Notes under the pieces: model-generated
What the model was told of the DNA's origin: nothing
Database searches by the model: none
The model's input: the letters and a program-made list of their open reading frames with translations, nothing else
NCBI GenBank assembly: GCA_008015835.1
Contig: SSGH01000010.1
Coordinates: 62,001 to 126,000, forward strand
Source of the DNA: Lysobacter sp.
Lineage (GTDB): Bacteria; Pseudomonadota; Gammaproteobacteria; Xanthomonadales; Xanthomonadaceae
DNA: 64,000 nucleotides
Reading direction: 5' to 3'
In this document: positions 12,605-34,368 of the stretch, in pieces
How positions within the stretch are numbered: position 1 is the first letter of the stretch
Layout: every line of letters starts with the position of its first letter
Made by a program: the position numbers and the translations under genes

Positions 12605-13240
12605 TCAAGGCGAAAATTTTGCCTGCGGTCTTTCTTTTTCACCGCTGATGTGAATATCAGCGAACTCGAGCTGGATTCTTTCCGCAGCATCAAGGAGAGC
12701 TAAATTTCTTGCAAGCATATCTATGAGGCGTTTTCCCTTCAATTCGTAGGCTTTACAATCGAAGTATTCGGTGATGTTTTCTCGATACAAGGCGACAGCT
12801 TCGCAGTACCTAAAAACCAGGAAGTTTAGTTCTTTGATCGCTTCAGTGCTGGCAGGAAAATTCTCGTCACTCATGTCTTTCAATATCAACTTTAAAGGTT
12901 TCTCGCCGCCTAGGTGCAGAGCGACACTTTCGGCCAGCAAAACTTCAATTTGATTGAGTAGGTCGTGAAGCATCCGGATGTGCCGAGAAGCCAACTGTTC
13001 TTCGCGCGCGATCTCGTTACTTTCAGCTTGTTGCTGTAGCGTTATGAGCAGAAGGATAGCCGTCAAGAATGATAAAAGCGGCCCCATCACGCCGCCTATG
13101 TAATCGCCGAATGCTGCCCAATCGGAAGGGGTTTTGGAGAGAGGGCCATTGAATCCGCCAAGCAAGAAATAGATAAGGGCGGGCGCGACGATAATGGCCG
13201 TCCCAAGCAAAGCGGCAAGAACTATGATGATTTTACGCAC
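12605..13240 (-). CDS. Two-helix membrane protein resembling putative phage abortive infection proteins
   Basis: Predicted inner-membrane protein of 211 residues. Two transmembrane helices (about 5-27 and 46-70, the second SFLTAILLLITLQQQ) are followed by a coiled-coil start (QQAESNEIAREEQLASRHIR) and a helical cytoplasmic domain. This layout matches the putative AbiC-like family; the match is by pattern and not certain. The start is GTG with AAGGGA upstream. Base composition is clearly AT-richer than both neighbours, codon use is foreign, and the gene sits 9 bases from the convergent phosphatase gene, all signs of recent transfer. A defence role is inferred only. Confidence 0.6.
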   Translation of the reverse strand: MRKIIIVLAALLGTAIIVAPALIYFLLGGFNGPLSKTPSDWAAFGDYIGGVMGPLLSFLTAILLLITLQQQAESNEIAREEQLASRHIRMLHDLLNQIEVLLAESVALHLGGEKPLKLILKDMSDENFPASTEAIKELNFLVFRYCEAVALYRENITEYFDCKAYELKGKRLIDMLARNLALLDAAERIQLEFADIHISGEKERPQAKFSP

Positions 13241-13285
13241 GATATTTTCCCTTGCGGATCAATTAATCAAATGGAGGTTGGGTGG

Positions 13286-14209
13286 TCATGGCACCGCCCG
13301 CCCGCGCGCCGCTTCCCACAGCGCGTACCACGCATCGCGCGGCAACGGCTCGGCGCAGGCGCGCACGCCCTCGCGCAGCCGCTCGATTTTCGTACTGCCC
13401 AACACCGCGCGCACGCCGGGCACCGTCGCCACCCAACGCAATAACAGCGATGCGGGGTCGAGCCCGAACTCGGCGCTCATCGTTTGCAGCGCGCCGTGCA
13501 GACGGCCGCCAATCGACGACTGCGGATCGAGCAATGCGCCGCCGCCCAGCGGCGACCAGGCCTGCGCTTCGGCGCCGCGCGCGCGCGTCGCCGCGAGCGT
13601 ACCGTCGTCCAAGGCCGCATCGTGCGCGAGCGAAAGTTCGATCTGATTCGCCGCGATCGGCAACATGCCGCCCAACAACGTGCCGCCGAACAACACGCCG
13701 TCGAACAACACGCCGTCGAATAACGCGATGGCGTGCGCATCGAAATTCGACACGCCGAACGCGCCGATGCGGCCGGCCGTCTGTTCTTCGCGCACCCAGT
13801 CGGCGATCGCGGCCGGTTCCAGCAGCGGATCGAAGCGATGCAGCATCAGCGTGTCGACGCGTTCGACGCCGAGCGCGCGCAAACTCTCGTCCAGCGCGCG
13901 CCGTAGATGCGATACGGACGAGTCGTAGTGCTGCACGCCCCGCGCATTGCCGGGGCTGGATGCCATCACGATGCCGATCTTCGCGATCAGATGCAGGCGC
14001 TGCCGAAGACCCGGTCGACGCGCGAAGGCCGCGCCGACCAGGGCATTGGTGGTGTGCCCGCCGTAGATATCGGCCAGATCCAGCGTGTCGATGCCGAGAT
14101 CCAGCGCGCCTTCGAGCAGATCGGCGACGCCCTCGGGCGACAGCCGCGCGCCCCATTCGCCGAACCGCATCGAACCGAGAATGGGCGCGGAGGAACGGGA
14201 TTCGTGCAT
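13286..14209 (-). CDS. Aldo/keto reductase
   Basis: NAD(P)H-dependent oxidoreductase of 307 residues. The AKR catalytic tetrad can be read: Asp and Tyr in LDLADIYGGH, Lys in LIAKIGI, His in TLMLHRFDP. SNFDAHAIALF and a C-terminal VLGSTK cofactor segment are also present. The ATG at 14209 gives the normal N-terminus. Unusual is a run of five-residue repeats (FDGVLFDGVLFGGTLLGG) after SNFDAHAIAL, encoded by a 15-bp tandem repeat. Substrate unknown. It is divergent from folC. Confidence 0.9.
   Translation of the reverse strand: MHESRSSAPILGSMRFGEWGARLSPEGVADLLEGALDLGIDTLDLADIYGGHTTNALVGAAFARRPGLRQRLHLIAKIGIVMASSPGNARGVQHYDSSVSHLRRALDESLRALGVERVDTLMLHRFDPLLEPAAIADWVREEQTAGRIGAFGVSNFDAHAIALFDGVLFDGVLFGGTLLGGMLPIAANQIELSLAHDAALDDGTLAATRARGAEAQAWSPLGGGALLDPQSSIGGRLHGALQTMSAEFGLDPASLLLRWVATVPGVRAVLGSTKIERLREGVRACAEPLPRDAWYALWEAARGRAVP
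13667..13726. repeat. 15-bp tandem repeat inside the aldo/keto reductase gene
   Basis: Four 15-bp units (first GCCGCCCAACAACGT, third GCCGTCGAACAACAC), decaying at both ends. Because the unit is a multiple of three the reading frame is kept and a pentapeptide repeat results. Confidence 0.85.
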
Positions 14210-26174: not shown

Positions 26175-26354
26175 ATGGGTAAGGGCGACCGCAAGACCGC
26201 CAAAGGTAAACGCTACAACGCCAGCTACGGCAACGCTCGCCCGAAGTCCGCGGGCGCGCCGGCCGCCAGCACGGCCGCCGTGAAAAAGGCCGCGAAGCCC
26301 GCCGCCAAGGCCCCGGCGAAGAAAGTGGTCGCGAAGAAAGCCGCCAAAGAGTGA
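26175..26354 (+). CDS. 30S ribosomal protein THX-like with a Lys/Ala tail
   Basis: Basic protein of 59 residues. The first 25 (MGKGDRKTAKGKRYNASYGN, then ARPK) match the THX family, which sits in the head of the 30S subunit. The remaining 34 residues are a Lys/Ala/Pro-rich tail (KKAAKPAAKAPAKK) like histone H1 tails. The start at 26175 has GAGG about 8 bases upstream. A strong terminator follows. The upstream 214 bases hold nothing I can support beyond this gene's promoter. Confidence 0.85.
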   Translation: MGKGDRKTAKGKRYNASYGNARPKSAGAPAASTAAVKKAAKPAAKAPAKKVVAKKAAKE

Positions 26355-26569: not shown

Positions 26570-27490
26570 TTATCGCGTCGTGCGCATCGCCGGAATGCGT
26601 TCCAGCCGCCCGCCCGCATAGTCGCGAGAGACCGACAAATCTTCGCGATGCACGTAGCCGATGAAGCAATCGCAGATCGCGTTCGGGCAGGGCCGCGCAC
26701 GCAGCCGCGATTCGAAACTGCCGTCGTACAGATTGCCCAACGGCGCGGCGACGAAATGGCAGCGGCGCACGTGGCCGTCGCCGTCCACCGACACCACGCT
26801 GTCGCCGGTCGCGCACGGCGCGCCGAGACTCGGCGGCGGATTCAGATTGTCGTCGAAATGCGGGTCGATGCCGCGCAGCCACGCGATGTCGCGCTCGTTG
26901 TAGTAAGCCGCATCGCGTTGGTCGTAGGCGTTCAGCCACATCGGCGTGTCGGCGGGCAGCTCGGCGCGCAAAGCCGCGATCTCCTCGAAGTGCTCGCGCA
27001 AGGCGACCATGCCGACGCTGTGGCGGATGCCGCGTCGCTTCAACTCGCGGCAGCGCGACAAAAACGCGCTGCGCGGCGTTTGGCTCGGGTGATAAGTGCA
27101 CCAAAACGCGAGCGTCGTCGCGTCGGCGTCGTCGAGCCAGCGCGTGCCCATGCACAGATTGGTTTGGATCGCGACGCGCCGCAGATGCGGCAGCCGGCTC
27201 AGGGCGACTATCGCGTCGCGATAGTGTTTGCGCACCAAGCCTTCGCCCCACGGCGTGAACAGCACCGACAGCGTACGTGCGGTCTGCGCGGCGGCCCACT
27301 CGACGAAACGCGCCAAATCGGCGGCGTCGCGCTGCAACGTCGCGCGCGTGTCGCGCCGTTTCGCGAACGGGCAATACGCGCAGTCGTAATTGCAACTGCT
27401 CAAGCGTCCGCGATACAGGATCGACAAGTGCGGCGCGTCTGACGCATCCCCCTGGAGTTCATTCGCGAACGCGATGTCACTCGAACGCAT
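26570..27490 (-). CDS. STM4011 family radical SAM protein
   Basis: Radical S-adenosylmethionine enzyme of 306 residues. The iron-sulphur motif CX3CX2C is Cys33, Cys37, Cys40 (SSCNYDCAYCPF). The C-terminal part has a SPASM-like region with further Cys (RRCHFV; ARPCPNAICDCFIGY) that could bind a second cluster, as in enzymes that modify peptides or proteins. It is last in the operon and overlaps the STM4012 homologue by 14 bases. The reaction is unknown. Confidence 0.88.
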   Translation of the reverse strand: MRSSDIAFANELQGDASDAPHLSILYRGRLSSCNYDCAYCPFAKRRDTRATLQRDAADLARFVEWAAAQTARTLSVLFTPWGEGLVRKHYRDAIVALSRLPHLRRVAIQTNLCMGTRWLDDADATTLAFWCTYHPSQTPRSAFLSRCRELKRRGIRHSVGMVALREHFEEIAALRAELPADTPMWLNAYDQRDAAYYNERDIAWLRGIDPHFDDNLNPPPSLGAPCATGDSVVSVDGDGHVRRCHFVAAPLGNLYDGSFESRLRARPCPNAICDCFIGYVHREDLSVSRDYAGGRLERIPAMRTTR

Positions 27491-28856
27491 AGGCGCGCAT
27501 CCTGTCGGCGACTGCGGGCGAGATCAACCACGGGCCGAGCGTGTCGGCGCGCGCTAGGCCTTCGTCGGTCGGCGCGATGCGCGTCGCGTCGATCGTCGCC
27601 AAGCCGTGCGTCTGCAGCGCGCGTAACTGTGGCAAATCGTCGAGGCAGTCGCCGCCGAAGCGGTGGCGATACGCGATTCGATCCAAGCCGGTCCGGATCA
27701 GCAAGGACTGGATGACGTAACGCCGCCGCTGTTCGTCGCCGTCGAGCGCAATTCCGTAGTCGGCATGCGCGAACGCGGCGTCGTCGAGGCGCAGGTAGTG
27801 CTCCAAAATATCGGCGACGCTGCGCCGGGAAACGCCGTATTCGCTGGAATAATGCAGCGCGCGCGTGTAGGAGCGGGCGCCGCAGCCGATCCCGACCATG
27901 CCGTCGTCCTGGCAGCAATACGCGGGCGCGTCGGCGTCGTCGGGCGCGTGCGCGGCACGGAACATGCGCATCGAAATCTGGCGATAGCCGGCGGCCAACA
28001 AAGCGTCGCGGCCGGCGCGATACAGCGCGGCGCGGTCGTCCTGCGGCTCGGGCCGCAGCGCGAATCGCGATCTGCCCTCGCGCGATTCGATTCGGCCCAA
28101 CCCCGTCAACGGCCGCACGTACAACGGGTAGAGATAGATCTCTTCCGGCGCGTACGCGAGCGCGCTATCGATCGATGCGAGAAAGCTCGCGGTGGTTTGT
28201 CCCGCGATGCCGTAGATCAGATCGAGATTCAGGGTGGGGAATTTCGCGTCGCGAATCGCGCGGATCGCGCGTTCGACCTCCGCGCGCTGCTGCGGGCGCA
28301 CCAACGATCGGACTTCCGCATCGACGAAACTCTGAATGCCCATGCTGATGCGGTCGATGCCGGCCTCGCGGCAAAGCGCCATTTTTTCGCCGTCTACGGT
28401 TTCGGGCGACACTTCCATGCCCGCAAGAACGTCGCGGGGATCGAGGTCGGCGATGTCGCGAATCGAGCGGAATAGCGCGTCGAGCTGCGGCGCCGTCAGG
28501 TAACTCGGCGTGCCGCCGCCGAGCGCGAAGCGCGCGAAGCGATGCGCGCCCAGCGCGTCGACCGTCGCGCGCAATTGCGCACGCATGCGGTCGAGATAAC
28601 GCGCGACGGTGTCCTCGGTCGGCCGCGCCAACGCGAACAAGTTGCAGAACCCGCAGCGATACGAGCAAAACGGAATATGCAAATACAGAAACAGCGCGCT
28701 GCGGTCTTCCTCGCCCCACGCGTCGCGCAGCGGAACCGGCGCGGGCAGCGGCCGATACGCCGTTTTGTGCGGATAGGAATAGGAATACGCCTGATACGGC
28801 GGCAGCGCCAAGAGGGCGTCGAGTGTCGTGGCGTCGTCGAGCGGTCGTGCGTTCAT
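27477..28856 (-). CDS. STM4012 family radical SAM protein (HemN/HemW-like)
   Basis: Radical SAM protein of 459 residues. The cluster motif is Cys64, Cys68, Cys71 (HIPFCSYRCGFCNLF), then ALGGGTPSYLTAPQLDALF and MGIQSF typical of the coproporphyrinogen dehydrogenase and HemW group, and a C-terminal HemN-like domain. It is distinct from hemN because it sits in the five-gene STM4011-4015 set. It overlaps STM4013 by four bases (ATGA). The substrate is unknown. Confidence 0.88.
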   Translation of the reverse strand: MNARPLDDATTLDALLALPPYQAYSYSYPHKTAYRPLPAPVPLRDAWGEEDRSALFLYLHIPFCSYRCGFCNLFALARPTEDTVARYLDRMRAQLRATVDALGAHRFARFALGGGTPSYLTAPQLDALFRSIRDIADLDPRDVLAGMEVSPETVDGEKMALCREAGIDRISMGIQSFVDAEVRSLVRPQQRAEVERAIRAIRDAKFPTLNLDLIYGIAGQTTASFLASIDSALAYAPEEIYLYPLYVRPLTGLGRIESREGRSRFALRPEPQDDRAALYRAGRDALLAAGYRQISMRMFRAAHAPDDADAPAYCCQDDGMVGIGCGARSYTRALHYSSEYGVSRRSVADILEHYLRLDDAAFAHADYGIALDGDEQRRRYVIQSLLIRTGLDRIAYRHRFGGDCLDDLPQLRALQTHGLATIDATRIAPTDEGLARADTLGPWLISPAVADRMRAYAFE

Positions 28857-29689
28857 GGCGTCAATACGAAATGCGCGTAGGGCACGGTCATCACCACCTC
28901 ATGCGCGATACGGTGACCGACGTAACCGTCTTCGCCGTAGGCGGTGCCGTGGTCGGAGCAGACGATCACGAACGTGGGTGCGCGCCGACGCGCGGCCTCG
29001 AACAGCGGCGCGAGCGCGTGATCGACGTACTCCAAGGCCGCGCAGTGGCTGTCGAGATCGTCGTCTTTCGCGCCGGGAACGTAATGCCGGTTCGGCTGAT
29101 GCAGCGCCGAGACGTTCAAGAACGTGAAGCAGCGGCGATCGCGGAGGTCGTCGGCCGCCCAGCGCTCGCGGGCGAGCGCGACTTGGCGCTTGGTGGAGTC
29201 GATCGCGGTCACGCCGAAGCTCGGCGACCAATGGGCTTCGTCGAAAAGATCGGGCAAGGCGCGACCCAGCGGGTTGGCGAGATTGAAGAAACCGACGCCG
29301 CCGATGCAAAGCGTGCGATAGCCGAGATCGGCCAATCCCTGCACGATATTCGCGCGGTCCGCGAAGACGAAGGTGTTCGCGTCGGTGGTTTCGCTGCCGG
29401 CGAAGTCCAGCGCGAACAGCCGCGGATGCGGGCCTGGGCGTGCGGGCGTCGGCAGAAAACCGGCGAAAAACGCTTGATGCGCGGCGTAAGTGAAGCTGGC
29501 GGGCGTGTGGCGTTTTTCCCAGCCGCCGAGCGGCAAATGCGGCGCGAGCGTCGGCAATCGCCCGGCCTCGAAACAACGCTGCGCCGCGTCGAAGCGCAGC
29601 GTGTCGAGCGTGACGAACAGAATGTCGTGACTGCCGACGATCTGGCGCATGTTCAACGTCGGTGCGGCGGAGCTAGCCATGCGCGACAC
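28853..29689 (-). CDS. STM4013/SEN3800 family sulfatase-like hydrolase
   Basis: Alkaline-phosphatase/sulfatase superfamily protein of 278 residues. Metal-site segments are ILFVTLDTLRFD near residue 25 (first Asp) and the late VCSDHGTAYGEDGYVGHR (Asp-His and His). No signal peptide is seen, so it acts in the cytoplasm. Its start overlaps the end of the STM4014 homologue by 17 bases; internal Met codons at residues 4 and 14 are alternatives. The substrate is unknown. Confidence 0.85.
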   Translation of the reverse strand: MSRMASSAAPTLNMRQIVGSHDILFVTLDTLRFDAAQRCFEAGRLPTLAPHLPLGGWEKRHTPASFTYAAHQAFFAGFLPTPARPGPHPRLFALDFAGSETTDANTFVFADRANIVQGLADLGYRTLCIGGVGFFNLANPLGRALPDLFDEAHWSPSFGVTAIDSTKRQVALARERWAADDLRDRRCFTFLNVSALHQPNRHYVPGAKDDDLDSHCAALEYVDHALAPLFEAARRRAPTFVIVCSDHGTAYGEDGYVGHRIAHEVVMTVPYAHFVLTP

Positions 29690-30818
29690 GCTCCTTCGTC
29701 AGCGCCGACATGCGCACGCGCCGACCGATCCATGCCGCTTGATCGTCGTAGGTTCCGGCGCCGTCCCAGGCCGTCGCGCCCGGCAGCAAATCGCCGAAGG
29801 CATTGGCTTCGATCACGACGACATGCTCGCGGGTCGGAATCAGATCGAAGCCGATGCTTCCGGCGCAACGAAACGCTGCAGCGGCGTTCCTGACCGCTCG
29901 AACGACGCGTCGCTTGGTCTCGTAGTCCAAGACCTCGTCGACCGCGACGCGGCGATTGCCCAGATGCAGATTCGTCATCGGATGCGCGGCGACGCGCGCG
30001 ACCCATTGCCGCGGTTCGCCGCCGACACTGACGACGCGCAGATCGAAATGCGCACCACCGACCGTGCGCGGCTTCGAGACCCACGCCTCGGCGTAGGCGC
30101 CCTGCATCGCGATCGCATCAATCAGCGCAGCGATATCGCGCGCATCGTCGTAGCGTTTCGGTCGTAGCGTGTTGAACAGCCGAACCTTGTGGTTCTCGCG
30201 CACCAGTTCCGCGCTGGTGTACGCGCATTCGCGTCCGTCGCGATGCCGGCGATAGGCGACGACGCCGGCCGCCGACGAACCGTAGCGCGCTTTCAGAAAC
30301 GCGCGATCCGTACCGACGGCGTCCATCCGCTCGCGAAACTCCGCATACGATTGGACGCGCCCGAATAAGGACGGCACATGCGCGCCGATCGCGTCGAGAC
30401 GACGCTGACATTCCAGCTTGTCGCACATCGCCAGAATCTCTTGCGGCGCGTTGAACCATACGATGTCGGGCGAGGCCGCCTCCAGCCGGCGCAGCAGATC
30501 CGCGAAACCAGCGAACCACAGCGACTGGTGCGCGAGTTCGCCGTGCGCGAGCGGCGCGGGCGGCGGGCCACGTTCGCCGCTGCAGCGCCAACCGTGTCGG
30601 ATCAGCGCGTCGCGCAGCGGTGTGGAATCGCCGGGCGAATCGATTTTCGCGCCGTCCTGCGCATGCGCGCGCAGACGCGCGACGACGGCGTCGGGATCGC
30701 GCAGCAGCTCGCTCCAATCGATCACCTCGACGAATGCGGCCAATCCGGGGCTGCGCGATTCGGCGGCCGCGAGCAAATATCGCGTTCGCCGATGATCGGC
30801 CTGTCCGATCAGGATCAT
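29673..30818 (-). CDS. STM4014 family ATP-grasp protein
   Basis: Cytoplasmic protein of 381 residues with an ATP-grasp fold in its C-terminal two thirds. A Lys-containing strand (RAFLKARYGSSAAGVVAYR) and the late metal motif GFDLIPTREHVVVIEANAFG with DLLPG are visible. ATP-grasp enzymes join a carboxylate to an amine, thiol or hydroxyl through an acyl phosphate. In this cassette the acceptor could be a protein side chain or a small molecule; this is open. It begins 45 bases after the STM4015 gene. Confidence 0.85.
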   Translation of the reverse strand: MILIGQADHRRTRYLLAAAESRSPGLAAFVEVIDWSELLRDPDAVVARLRAHAQDGAKIDSPGDSTPLRDALIRHGWRCSGERGPPPAPLAHGELAHQSLWFAGFADLLRRLEAASPDIVWFNAPQEILAMCDKLECQRRLDAIGAHVPSLFGRVQSYAEFRERMDAVGTDRAFLKARYGSSAAGVVAYRRHRDGRECAYTSAELVRENHKVRLFNTLRPKRYDDARDIAALIDAIAMQGAYAEAWVSKPRTVGGAHFDLRVVSVGGEPRQWVARVAAHPMTNLHLGNRRVAVDEVLDYETKRRVVRAVRNAAAAFRCAGSIGFDLIPTREHVVVIEANAFGDLLPGATAWDGAGTYDDQAAWIGRRVRMSALTKERVAHG

Positions 30819-30863
30819 TCGCGACCACCGGCGAGGGCGACGATGCGCATCCGCGGACGTCGC

Positions 30864-31796
30864 TTACTCGGCCACTTCGACGTAACGATCGCCGTCGGTC
30901 TCGTCGGCGTCCTGCGGATCATCCAGCACGACGCGGCAGGGCAGCGATTTGAGCTGGGCCTGCAGCGCGTCGCCGATGTAGTGATGGCTCAAATCCAGCG
31001 TTTGAAGCGTCTTGACGTGCGGACTATCGAGCAATGCCTGGGCGCCCTCGTCGCCGATGGTGCCCATCGACAGATCGAGCGTCTTCAACTGGCTCAGCCA
31101 CGGCTGCTGCGCGAGATGCGCGGCGAGCGCGTCGCTGATCTGCGCGTTGCGCAGGCCCAGATATTCCAAACGTTCGGGTTTGATCGCCGCCAACAGCGTT
31201 TCGTACGTGCCGATGTCGCCGTCGAAGCCGTAGTTATCGTCGCCCAGCCACAATTCGAGACGACGCAGCGCGGGCAGCGTGGAGCCGGCGATGCCGTTCG
31301 CGACCGCGCTCGGCAAACCGCCGCACTCGACCGCCAATTCTTCGAGGAATTCGTGAGCGATGGGCGGGAACTCGAGGCCGCTGCTGCCGCGAATCCGCAA
31401 CACCTGCAGCATCGGGAACGCGTCGAGCAGCGCCTTGTAGCCGCCGCACTGGATGATCCACGAAATCTCGCAGTCCTCGGAGGTCATATCGCCGACGAAC
31501 AGCGCGCGCAGAGCGCCCAAGTCGCCGCGGCGTTCGATCAAGACGTCCAGATACTCCTGCGGCGATTCGTCGTGCGCTTCGCTCCACGCGCCGATCACCA
31601 AGGCGTCGAGCGCCGACGTATCGACTTGCGAGAGGAACGCTTCCAGCAGTTCGCGTTGGCTCTCGGCCGAGTCGTAATCCTGCGCCAGGCGATACACCGT
31701 CGTGCGCACCGCGCCCGGATCGGCGATGGTGTCGCCCATGCGGAATTCGACGACAGGCTTGCCGAAGAAGCGATCCTGATTCTGATTGACGGTCAT
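30864..31796 (-). CDS. STM4015 family leucine-rich-repeat protein
   Basis: First gene of the cassette; 310 residues. The second half is a leucine-rich-repeat array of the ribonuclease-inhibitor type, for example LEYLGLRNAQISDALAAHL, LKTLDLSMGTIGDEGAQALL and LQTLDLSHHYIGDALQAQL. The last 19 residues are a loose acidic tail (DDPQDADETDGDRYVEVAE). No signal peptide. The ATG at 31796 is preceded by AAGGAA. It may bind partner proteins or be the substrate of the cassette's enzymes (inference). Confidence 0.87.
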   Translation of the reverse strand: MTVNQNQDRFFGKPVVEFRMGDTIADPGAVRTTVYRLAQDYDSAESQRELLEAFLSQVDTSALDALVIGAWSEAHDESPQEYLDVLIERRGDLGALRALFVGDMTSEDCEISWIIQCGGYKALLDAFPMLQVLRIRGSSGLEFPPIAHEFLEELAVECGGLPSAVANGIAGSTLPALRRLELWLGDDNYGFDGDIGTYETLLAAIKPERLEYLGLRNAQISDALAAHLAQQPWLSQLKTLDLSMGTIGDEGAQALLDSPHVKTLQTLDLSHHYIGDALQAQLKSLPCRVVLDDPQDADETDGDRYVEVAE

Positions 31797-31849: not shown

Positions 31850-33115
31850 TTATCGCTCGGACGTCGGCGTGCGTTCGGCCACCGCTTCTACCTCGCGCCA
31901 TGCGCGCAGCAGATTGCCGCCGAGAATTTTGCGGATGTCCGCATCGCGATAGCCGCGCGCCTGCAGGCCGGCGATCACGTTCGGGAAATCGGCCACGGAT
32001 TTCAGGCCGTCGGGCAATGCGCCGCTGACGCCGTCGAAATCGGAGCCGATGCCGATATGGTCGACGCCCACCAGTTTCACACCGTAATCGATTTGCTCGA
32101 GCACGCGTTCGATCTCGGTCTTCAGCGGCGGATGGGTATCGTCCCAGTGCTTGTCGAACGCGTTGAAGTCCTCCAAGGGTTCGCCGGCCGCGGCGCGCGC
32201 GGCATTGCGGCGATGGAACTCGTTCGCGGCGGCGAAATACGCCTGCGTCTGCGCAGCGGAAGCCGGATCGACGAATGGGTTACCGAACGGAATTTGGATC
32301 ACGCCGCCCTTCGCGGCGATGGCCTTGGCCAGTTCGTCGCTGAGATTGCGCTCGAACCCCGGCGTGAAATGCCGCAGCGCCGAATGCGTGGCCACCACCG
32401 GCGCGCGGCTGAGCGCGACCGACTGCGCGACGGCGTCGTCGGACAAGTGCGAGACATCGACCATGATGCCCAGTCTGTTCATCTCGGCGACGACATCGCG
32501 GCCGAACGGGCTGAGCCCGTTCCATTTCTTCTCGGCGGCGTAGGACGAATCGGCGATGCGATTGTTCGCGCTGTGCGCGAGCGTGATGTAACGGATGCCG
32601 CGATCGTAGAATTCGCGCAATTTCGACAGATCATCGCCGATGGGCGCGCCGTTCTCCATGCCCAGCGGCAGCAGCACGCGCGGTTCTCCGCCGCGACGCG
32701 ACGGCGCGCGCAAGCGGTCCACATCGCGCGGCGAGCGCAGCAGCGCGAATTTTTCGGGGTGCCGCTGCGCCAGCGCTTCCACCGCATCGATCATCTGATG
32801 CGCGACTTTCCACGCGCTGCCGTCCTCGTCCTGGCCGGACGAGGTGTAGATCGACATGAACGCGACATCCAGACCGCCGGCGCGGGCGCGCGGGTAATCG
32901 AATTCGCGATCGTTCTGCAATCGGCCGAGATCGACCCAGCGCTTGAGCAAGGCGGTCGGCGCATCGATATGGGTATCGACGATCACCGCATCTTGGGCGA
33001 GGGCAACGGCGGCGGGGTTGGTGGCATGCTCGGCGGCGTGCGCGGGTGGTGCGGATGCGACGAGTGTCGCGAACGCGCCGGCGACGAGGGCGAGCGAAAG
33101 CAGGGAAGGACGCAT
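31850..33115 (-). CDS. M19 family membrane dipeptidase-like metallopeptidase
   Basis: Zinc dipeptidase of 421 residues with a signal peptide (SLALVAGAFATLVASA, cut near 27), so periplasmic or membrane-associated. Metal motifs are VDTHIDAP, the bridging Glu in LGMENGAPI, then VDVSHLSDDAV, VATHSALRHF and a late IGIGSDFDGV, all typical of renal-dipeptidase-like enzymes. It ends 53 bases before the STM4015 gene and starts 20 bases after hutI on the same strand. Confidence 0.92.
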   Translation of the reverse strand: MRPSLLSLALVAGAFATLVASAPPAHAAEHATNPAAVALAQDAVIVDTHIDAPTALLKRWVDLGRLQNDREFDYPRARAGGLDVAFMSIYTSSGQDEDGSAWKVAHQMIDAVEALAQRHPEKFALLRSPRDVDRLRAPSRRGGEPRVLLPLGMENGAPIGDDLSKLREFYDRGIRYITLAHSANNRIADSSYAAEKKWNGLSPFGRDVVAEMNRLGIMVDVSHLSDDAVAQSVALSRAPVVATHSALRHFTPGFERNLSDELAKAIAAKGGVIQIPFGNPFVDPASAAQTQAYFAAANEFHRRNAARAAAGEPLEDFNAFDKHWDDTHPPLKTEIERVLEQIDYGVKLVGVDHIGIGSDFDGVSGALPDGLKSVADFPNVIAGLQARGYRDADIRKILGGNLLRAWREVEAVAERTPTSER

Positions 33116-33135
33116 CGAACGCTCCGGGATCGAGT

Positions 33136-34368
33136 TCAAGGAGTGAGCGGCACGCGCGCGCCGCCGATGTAGAGATCGCGCAACAGATCGCCACCCAGCC
33201 AATAGCACAACTCGGCGGGTCGGCGCACGCGCCACAGCGCGAGGTCCGCGCGCAAACCGACGCGCAGCCTGCCGCGATCGTGCAGGCCGAGCGCACGCGC
33301 GGCATGCACGGTCGCGCCGCGCAGCGCTTCTTCCGGCGTCAGTCGAAAATGCGTACACGCCAGCGACATCGCCAAGCGCAGCGACAGCAGCGGCGACGTG
33401 CCGGGATTGCAATCGGTGGACACCGCCATCGCGACCCCGCGTTCGCGGAACGCGTTGATCGGCGGCCGTCGCGTTTCGCGCAAACAATGGAACGCGCCCG
33501 GCAGAAGCACCGCGACCGTACCGGCGCGCGCCATCGCTTCGACCGCATCGTCGTCGGTGTATTCGACGTGATCGGCGGAGAGTCCGCCATACCCCGCGAC
33601 TAGCGCCGCGCCGCCGAGATCGCTGAGCTGGTCGGCATGCAGCTTCACCGGCAGCCCGAGCGCCTGCGCCGCGTCGAACACGCGCCGCGTTTGCGCGGGG
33701 GTGAAGCCGATGCCTTCGCAAAACGCATCGACCGCATCGACCAAGCCTTCGTCGCGCAAGCGCGGCAGCCAGGCGACGACCGCGTCGATGTAGCCATCGG
33801 CATCGCTCGCGAATTCGGGCGGCAACGCGTGCGCGCCGAGATAAGTCGTGCGCACGTCGATACCGAGCGTCTCGCCCAGGCGTCGCGCGACGCGCAGCAG
33901 TTTGCGTTCGTTGTCGAAATCGAGGCCGTAGCCGGATTTGATTTCCAGCGTCGTCGCGCCGTCGCGCAGCAGCGCGCGCGCGCGCGGTAGAGTTTCCGCG
34001 AGAATCGCGTCCTCGCTCGCCGCGCGCACGGCGCGCACGGTGGACAGAATGCCGCCGCCAGCCCGCGCGATGTCCTCGTAACTCGCGCCCTGCAGCCGCA
34101 ATTCGAATTCGTGCGCGCGGTCGTCGGCGAAGGCCAGATGCGTGTGGCAATCGATCAGACCGGGCGTGACCCACGCGCTGCCGGCGTCGATCGTCTCGTG
34201 CGCCAACGCCTCGGGCGCATTCGGCAACGCGTTGCGCGGGCCGACGAACGTCAGCGCGCCGTCTTTCCACGCCAATGCGCCGTCGTCGATCGCGCCGTAA
34301 CCGTCGCCGTCGAGCGTCGCCAGCGAGGCGTTGAGCAGCAGCGCGTCCCAGGGCGGCGTCGCGTTCAT
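33136..34368 (-). CDS. hutI: Imidazolonepropionase
   Basis: Third enzyme of histidine degradation, opening the imidazolone ring to N-formimidoylglutamate. Length 410 residues. Amidohydrolase motifs are [20 protein letters not shown], the [15 protein letters not shown] segment, VKLHADQL, and [11 protein letters not shown]. The start codon overlaps the stop of the CoA-transferase gene by four bases. Confidence 0.95.

Follow-up and report, generated by a model that had tools for sequence, protein, structure and literature searches.

A cassette of five genes, STM4015-STM4014-STM4013-STM4012-STM4011, is encoded on one strand of a 64,000-nucleotide stretch of Lysobacter sp. DNA (contig SSGH01000010.1, positions 62,001 to 126,000; referred to here as the window). 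Its first gene codes for a leucine-rich repeat (LRR) protein with a strongly conserved C-terminal tail that ends in glutamate. This protein is not an accessory component; it bears the tail and is probably the substrate or carrier. With moderate confidence we propose that the cassette is a carrier-protein modification system in which the ATP-grasp ligase STM4014 would couple an amine to the terminal glutamate of STM4015, with STM4011, STM4012 and STM4013 making or tailoring the coupled group. The new element is that STM4015, by virtue of this tail, looks like the substrate of the system.

The C-terminal tail of STM4015

In 44 aligned STM4015 sequences the tail follows the consensus R-[YF]-[VI]-A-V-[SGA]-E-COOH and is preceded by an acidic linker that is variable. 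All 44 sequences have glutamate as last residue; counted back from the end, position -7 is R in 41, -6 is Y or F in 42, -5 is V or I in 39, and -3 is V in 39. Similar endings were present in all of the first nine STM4015 proteins examined, which came from seven records. Among 107 open reading frames (ORFs) scored as STM4015, 105 end in glutamate; the remaining two are a 30-bit match that is not STM4015 (locus L079) and a frameshifted gene (L114) whose tail, DRFIAVGE, is present in another frame. The latter is also the exception among the distinct STM4015 ORFs of at least 60 bits, 103 of 104 of which have the terminal glutamate. For the other cassette proteins the commonest last residue was found in 10 of 44 (STM4014), 9 of 44 (STM4013), 18 of 42 (STM4012) and 6 of 42 sequences (STM4011). 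As judged from these alignments, STM4015 is the only one of the five proteins with a strongly conserved end. Since variation is seen at third codon positions, in the stop codon and in the distance between STM4015 and STM4014, the constraint is on the protein and not on the DNA or a ribosome site. Where a locus has additional STM4015 copies, some of which score lower as LRR proteins, each of them has a related tail with glutamate at its end.

A strict DNA pattern of the tail was searched for in 250 genomes of the order. It matched in ten of them: in all seven that hold the cassette (see below), each time at STM4015, and in three of the 243 others. The same pattern read backwards, which served as a control, matched in 12 of the 250 genomes. 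Other proteins bearing the STM4015 tail were discarded as candidates because within the seven cassette genomes the strict pattern matches nothing but STM4015. In 36 further cassette genomes there were 26 matches in 23 genomes; 25 of them are STM4015 by hidden Markov model, and the 26th (L169) is not, ends in TGG and has no stop. The loci of the 13 genomes without a strict match have tails that are all slightly off the strict form.

The linker (residues -20 to -8) has a net negative charge of at least 4 in 39 of the 44 aligned homologues. The net charge of the window's STM4015 is -30, and the median is -28 for STM4015 (n = 44) as opposed to +5 for STM4014. In the AlphaFold model of STM4015 (mean predicted local distance difference test score, pLDDT, 92.7) the last 20 residues are coil, with block means of 84 and 64. 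The nearest solved structure identified with Foldseek is 2ra8, an uncharacterised homologue from Bacteroides fragilis whose chain includes the tail SYPMITE; LRR proteins come next. No publication on 2ra8 was found in the literature search.

In loci L008 (2559-2633, minus strand) and L074 (9756-9830, plus strand), which look like the same organism, STM4015 is replaced by a 24-amino-acid ORF that ends in ERLVAVSE and whose stop overlaps the STM4014 start; the genome has a full WGR-LRR STM4015 on another contig (L126). The short ORF may be either a minimal substrate or a remnant. In L032 an extra STM4015-like ORF with the tail GRYTQVSE (12719-13417, minus strand) is located just past the cassette end on the opposite strand.

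Inheritance and gene order of the cassette

All five proteins of the window score above the curated NCBIfam cut-offs of their families, and their genes are adjacent on one strand (Table 1). The span and families originally given for these genes are thereby confirmed, as is the description of four genes as overlapping or nearly so: the junctions STM4014/STM4013, STM4013/STM4012 and STM4012/STM4011 overlap, and STM4015 and STM4014 are separated by 45 bp. With Pfam, LRRs were detected in STM4015, an ATP-grasp domain below cut-off in STM4014, a sulfatase/phosphodiesterase domain in STM4013, radical S-adenosylmethionine (SAM) and HemN C-terminal domains in STM4012, and a radical SAM domain in STM4011.

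The five families were scored against the NCBIfam cut-offs in the 250 genomes of the order, which include the window's own. The same seven genomes, again including the window's own, have all five families above cut-off, and none of the remaining 243 has any of them (Fisher p of about 9e-14 for each pair of families); such co-occurrence is not due to chance. Above cut-off, homologues thus never occur singly in this sample. One genome without the cassette contains an STM4013 relative below cut-off (121 bits; L127, G104:C1:359637-360413), near which genes judged sulfotransferase-like by eye are located. With the E-value relaxed to 1e-3, STM4014 'matches' 136 of the 250 genomes because ATP-grasp enzymes are common. 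Given its patchy presence within the order, the cassette is accessory. The window's own genome has a single STM4014 gene.

A species-level genome scan with the STM4014 alignment at a loose threshold yielded at least 555 stretches, the best 80 of which were read; this sample leans towards relatives of the window. Judged by their record titles, the 80 loci represent eight phyla: Pseudomonadota, Actinomycetota, Bacteroidota, Planctomycetota, Myxococcota, Verrucomicrobiota, Armatimonadota (Capsulimonas) and Melainabacteria (Obscuribacter). Two further phyla are added by cassettes on Deinococcus and Paenibacillus plasmids. The order STM4015 (one to three copies)-STM4014-STM4013-STM4012-STM4011 on one strand is present in 69 of the 80 loci; two of these loci have STM4012 divided among two or three ORFs, and the cassette genes may be interrupted by others. 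In 77 loci STM4015 is the gene immediately before STM4014, with the same orientation (exceptions L074, L091 and L114). The block STM4013-STM4012-STM4011 is turned in L098, L107, L117 and L113; in these four loci and in genome G177 (L002/L128) the two modules STM4015-STM4014 and STM4013-STM4012-STM4011 are turned or re-ordered. An STM4015 gene is placed between STM4013 and STM4012 in L083 and L091, the LRR gene is missing from its usual place in L074, and L076, L079, L101 and L114 are short contigs or have the rest of the cassette out of reach.

In E. coli genomes no DNA-level match was found. The cassette on a Bacteroides finegoldii plasmid (L036, 8794-10752) looks broken: between the annotated STM4014 and STM4011 genes STM4013 is reduced to a fragment of 81 bits and STM4012 to one of 27 bits. 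A Planctomycetota genome (G269) has two similar cassette copies on different contigs (L089 and L093), in one of which STM4012 extends over three ORFs.

Cassette enzymes and readings of their chemistry

Residues that are probably catalytic are conserved across the alignments of the enzymes. In STM4014, D259, R261 and N339 are present in every aligned sequence and E337 in at least 90% of them. The predicted model (mean pLDDT 93) was compared with structures in the PDB by Foldseek. The 13 best matches were ArgX-LysW (3vpb), LysX/ArgX with LysW-gamma-AAA (5k2m), RimK-RpsF (5zk6), LysX and further RimK structures; several of them are complexes with a protein substrate (3vpb, 5k2m, 5zk6). LysX, ArgX and RimK act on the C-terminal glutamate of a protein. 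The segment TNLHLGN of STM4014 aligns with TNTARGG of LysX; the likeness is one of fold, sequence similarity being weak, and no Pfam RimK match to STM4014 was found at an E-value of 0.01. By its predicted fold STM4014 thus appears nearest to LysX/ArgX/RimK rather than clearly to a macrocyclase of ribosomally synthesized and post-translationally modified peptides (RiPPs). The original prediction is supported in so far as the chemistry is likely to be cytoplasmic and to modify a peptide or protein. The reported lack of signal peptides was judged by eye only, from the N-termini.

Residues D26, T64, D243 and H244 of STM4013 are invariant (numbering from the start at 29680). Its SFTYAAH region gave a weak local alignment with SLTFPNH of the nucleotide pyrophosphatase/phosphodiesterase (NPP) 2gsn, in which the aligned threonine is the nucleophile. 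Formylglycine-type sulfatases have at the nucleophile position a cysteine or serine that is converted to formylglycine. An ordinary sulfatase of this type was ruled out on account of the invariant, NPP-like Thr64, the alignment being weak. STM4013, previously designated a sulfatase-fold hydrolase, belongs to the alkaline phosphatase superfamily, and its NPP-like threonine makes phosphodiesterase or phosphotransferase activity more likely than sulfatase activity. In STM4012 the cysteines C49/C53/C56 (Cx3Cx2C) are invariant, and the best PDB profile matches are HemN (1olt), followed by the methyltransferase NocN (9p2u). STM4011 has invariant C33/C37/C40 (Cx3Cx2C) plus C226, C244 and C275; its sole PDB profile match is SkfB (6efn, E 0.0009), named sporulation killing factor maturation protein, and it shows a weak match to MoaA as well. 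A role in anti-phage defence was rejected: PADLOC returned only partial radical SAM matches, of STM4012 to PDC-M51A (7.8e-9, 96 residues) and of STM4011 to pVip (0.0078), and no matches for STM4013, STM4014, STM4015 and three partner proteins.

Amino-group carriers are described in an excerpt of PMC9303977 as proteins whose cargo is joined via the gamma-carboxylate of a C-terminal glutamate, which is activated and then linked to an amine, and whose negatively charged residues are recognised by the enzymes. The terminal glutamate, flexible tail and acidity of STM4015 and the adjoining LysX-like ligase fit this outline, and for this reason STM4014 is proposed to load STM4015. We infer that the enzymes would recognise the folded part of the very acidic STM4015, and that its flexible tail (...RYVAVSE-COOH) would be the work site. 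STM4014, being similar to LysX, ArgX and RimK, would activate the terminal glutamate carboxylate with ATP and then couple an amine to it. STM4012 (HemN type), STM4011 (SPASM-like) and STM4013 would make this amine or modify it on the carrier; a phosphatase of the haloacid dehalogenase (HAD) type may aid STM4013 in some lineages.

The best reading is that the STM4015 system functions like the LysW system without being a member of it. As with the LysW and Vzb22 (Streptomyces) carriers, STM4015 is acidic and globular with a flexible C-terminal extension ending in glutamate, and the ligase encoded beside it has, in fold, ArgX-LysW and LysX/ArgX-LysW as nearest structures. LysW is a small zinc-binding protein, whereas STM4015 is an LRR protein of about 310 amino acids and not a LysW homologue by its Foldseek matches; its tail reads RYVAVSE, and its partners are radical SAM enzymes and phosphohydrolases. 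LysW-type clusters carry a dedicated release peptidase, in contrast to the cassette, near which no such peptidase recurs (95 neighbour ORFs from 35 loci, a comparison confined to the surroundings of the cassette). RimK targets a protein C-terminus (excerpt of PMC8939145), that of ribosomal protein S6, which is glutamylated, and STM4014 is an ATP-grasp enzyme of the same structural group (5zk6); however, its proposed target is an LRR protein encoded alongside, and the cassette adds radical SAM enzymes. In the case of pearlins (PEARL-based 3-thia-amino acids on a carrier peptide) a small group is likewise built on the C-terminus of a ribosomal carrier, and PMC9303977 has radical SAM methyltransferase among its keywords. 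The amino acid of pearlins is loaded from aminoacyl-tRNA (excerpt of PMC9016710), whereas the cassette has an ATP-grasp ligase and a large, folded carrier. With graspetides and radical SAM RiPPs (PsnB, SkfB, NocN) the cassette shares a related ATP-grasp fold and SPASM-like and HemN-type relatives; unlike them it has as a rule no short precursor peptide, apart from the one tail-only ORF described above, and the STM4015 tail has no constant pair of side chains for ester or amide rings.

Several observations weigh against STM4015 being a loaded carrier: (i) PsnB, a graspetide ligase, takes rank 14 in the Foldseek list of STM4014, D-Ala ligases also come after the first 13, and TM-scores on the query are moderate (about 0.55), so that fold alone leaves the acceptor unfixed; (ii) PDB profile searches with STM4014 matched LysX weakly, in one search (E 9e-5) together with weak RimK and inositol-phosphate kinase matches and in the other (E 0.0025) together with cyanophycin synthetase; (iii) carrier-based pathways require a release step, and no recurrent peptidase was found, as no peptidase family matched two or more of the 95 neighbour ORFs compared with Pfam (out of 209, from 35 diverse loci; families matched once were partly listed), and each Pfam family matched at most three; (iv) in conservation the tail positions R, Y/F and V come close to the glutamate, and the chemistry may lie there; (v) the 24-amino-acid ORF of L008/L074 is a single event that may be a remnant; and (vi) the DUF6745 and approximately 100-amino-acid proteins that accompany some cassettes (see below) also have conserved ends (T in 12 of 13 and D in 13 of 13, respectively), so a conserved end alone is no proof of a work site.

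The near-invariance of R, Y/F and V would suit a RiPP-like system in which the radical SAM enzymes cross-link, methylate or epimerise the tail residues R-Y-V-A-V-S themselves, the end is closed or lengthened by STM4014, and the LRR part serves as a leader of unusual size. SkfB as the sole match of STM4011, NocN, which presumably serves a RiPP pathway, as the second match of STM4012, and PsnB as a close fold neighbour of STM4014 point the same way. Yet seven of the 44 tails have F, S or N in place of Tyr, and the tails of Salmonella and Methylobacterium lose Tyr at this position and keep the glutamate. With S or T at position -2 in just 28 of 44 there is no constant ester donor, the precursor would be a globular protein of about 300 amino acids, and a recurrent protease family was not found among the neighbour ORFs. 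We regard this explanation as rather doubtful.

The lack of a recurrent release peptidase would be in keeping with RimK-like regulation, in which STM4014 tags STM4015 without subsequent release and so switches an LRR interaction protein, the other enzymes making the tag. RimK and the RimK-RpsF complex are close fold neighbours of STM4014, LRR solenoids are commonly binding modules, and the DUF6745 proteins accompanying the cassette include some that are LRR-like by eye. Against this, STM4015 has no known binding partner, and two radical SAM enzymes would be costly for a simple tag; regulation of this kind therefore seems unlikely. Finally, it is highly improbable that STM4015 is no substrate at all and its tail a docking or assembly signal for enzymes making a free small molecule or cofactor: short conserved C-terminal motifs can serve as docking tags and both radical SAM families have relatives acting on small molecules (HemN, and MoaA by the weak match of STM4011), but a docking motif would not need an invariant free terminal glutamate, the relatives of STM4014 that rank highest by fold have a terminal glutamate as their target, and the end itself is kept in extra STM4015 copies.

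Genes of the window and optional partners

Table 1. Position of the cassette genes and of two STM4015 segments in the window.
Feature	Position	Strand	Basis
STM4015 family LRR protein, 310 aa, proposed dedicated carrier/substrate	30864..31796	-	NCBIfam NF038076, 308 bits (cut-off 275)
Acidic linker of STM4015, residues ~291-303	30888..30926	-	Charge in homologues; coil in model
C-terminal tail RYVEVAE of STM4015, proposed modification/attachment site (terminal Glu)	30867..30887	-	Tail conservation
STM4014 family ATP-grasp ligase, 381 aa, proposed carrier ligase	29673..30818	-	NF038074, 298 bits (cut-off 175)
STM4013 family alkaline-phosphatase-superfamily hydrolase, NPP-like Thr	28853..29680, alternative start 29689	-	NF038075, 394 bits (cut-off 250)
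STM4012 family HemN-like radical SAM protein, 459 aa	27477..28856	-	NF006067, 578 bits (cut-off 380)
STM4011 family radical SAM protein, SPASM-like C-terminal cysteines, 306 aa	26570..27490	-	NF038073, 379 bits (cut-off 200)

A promoter scan did not find a sigma-70-like site. A putative secreted membrane dipeptidase gene, assigned by eye (31850-33200), shares the minus strand with STM4015 and terminates 53 bp before STM4015 begins. At 26181-26354 on the plus strand a small basic protein with the N-terminus MGKGDRKTAKGKRYNASYGNARPK and an Ala/Lys-rich tail is encoded, which resembles ribosomal protein bTHX.

Two kinds of optional genes that accompany the cassette elsewhere, a HAD phosphatase gene before STM4013 and a pair coding for DUF6745 and a protein of approximately 100 amino acids, are absent from the window. 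A HAD-type gene directly precedes STM4013 in 12 of the 80 loci (confirmed by Pfam in L075 and L098, the two tested), and in Salmonella another HAD gene follows STM4011; these genes hint at a phosphorylated intermediate. The DUF6745 pair shares a locus with the cassette in 19 of the 80 loci, both members being present in all 19, and is found on Deinococcus, Methylobacterium and Streptomyces plasmids too. In the order DUF6745 was detected in two of the 250 genomes, both of them cassette genomes (p 0.0007); its presence in 13 of the 36 further cassette genomes shows that it is optional. In genome G021 the pair is located beside a WGR-LRR STM4015 on a contig apart from the enzymes, so that STM4015 and the pair are separable from them. 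The DUF6745 end (Y-x-P...T) is not put forward as a second substrate tail because it lacks a terminal glutamate. The Obscuribacter genome of locus L101 (G277) has 11 DUF6745 matches, one with an internal stop, which is an unusual expansion. No literature on DUF6745 was found.

In a clustering of neighbour genes, judged by eye from two members of each cluster listed, methionine-type ABC transporter genes next to Actinomadura cassettes were taken to reflect local synteny. In G177 a macro-domain protein and an ADP-ribosylglycohydrolase (both by Pfam) are encoded beside the cassette (L128, 6002-8779), where further neighbours resemble DUF4291 and NUDIX proteins, and a macro-domain gene abuts the cassette in L074/L008. 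A link to ADP-ribose as a general feature was dismissed, as sequence searches with these proteins found no more among the ORFs of the loci searched.

The original statement that the enzyme set has no known product agrees with the literature searched, in which no published reaction or function paper was found. Searches by locus name gave no papers on cassette function, most subscription literature lying outside their scope, and earlier bioinformatic remarks may exist. Nor did searches with the same scope find literature that joins leucine-rich repeat, radical SAM and ATP-grasp to both C-terminal and precursor, or any three among LysX, RimK, leucine-rich repeat and radical SAM. Iyer and others reportedly surveyed ATP-grasp amidoligases in 2009. 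An excerpt of a sigma-54 study lists a site in STM4013.S (PMC3844500) and one of a selection study lists STM4015 (PMC2784778); neither study is about function.

The cassette families have hitherto been known mainly through Salmonella locus numbers, and the tail narrows an open-ended puzzle to the C-terminus of STM4015. A further-reaching form of the carrier proposal is put forward more tentatively: a new class of carrier biosynthesis, spread over many phyla, in which an LRR protein would be the amino-group carrier, two radical SAM enzymes and a phosphodiesterase would build a possibly cofactor-like group on its C-terminal glutamate, and the DUF6745 pair would read or use the product. If STM4015 is indeed a carrier, carrier-protein chemistry would no longer be confined to LysW but would include radical SAM chemistry and an LRR scaffold without relation to LysW. 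Many species would then be concerned, with at least 555 stretches encoding STM4014 relatives at the loose threshold, and the uncharacterised structural-genomics structure 2ra8 would gain a possible role.

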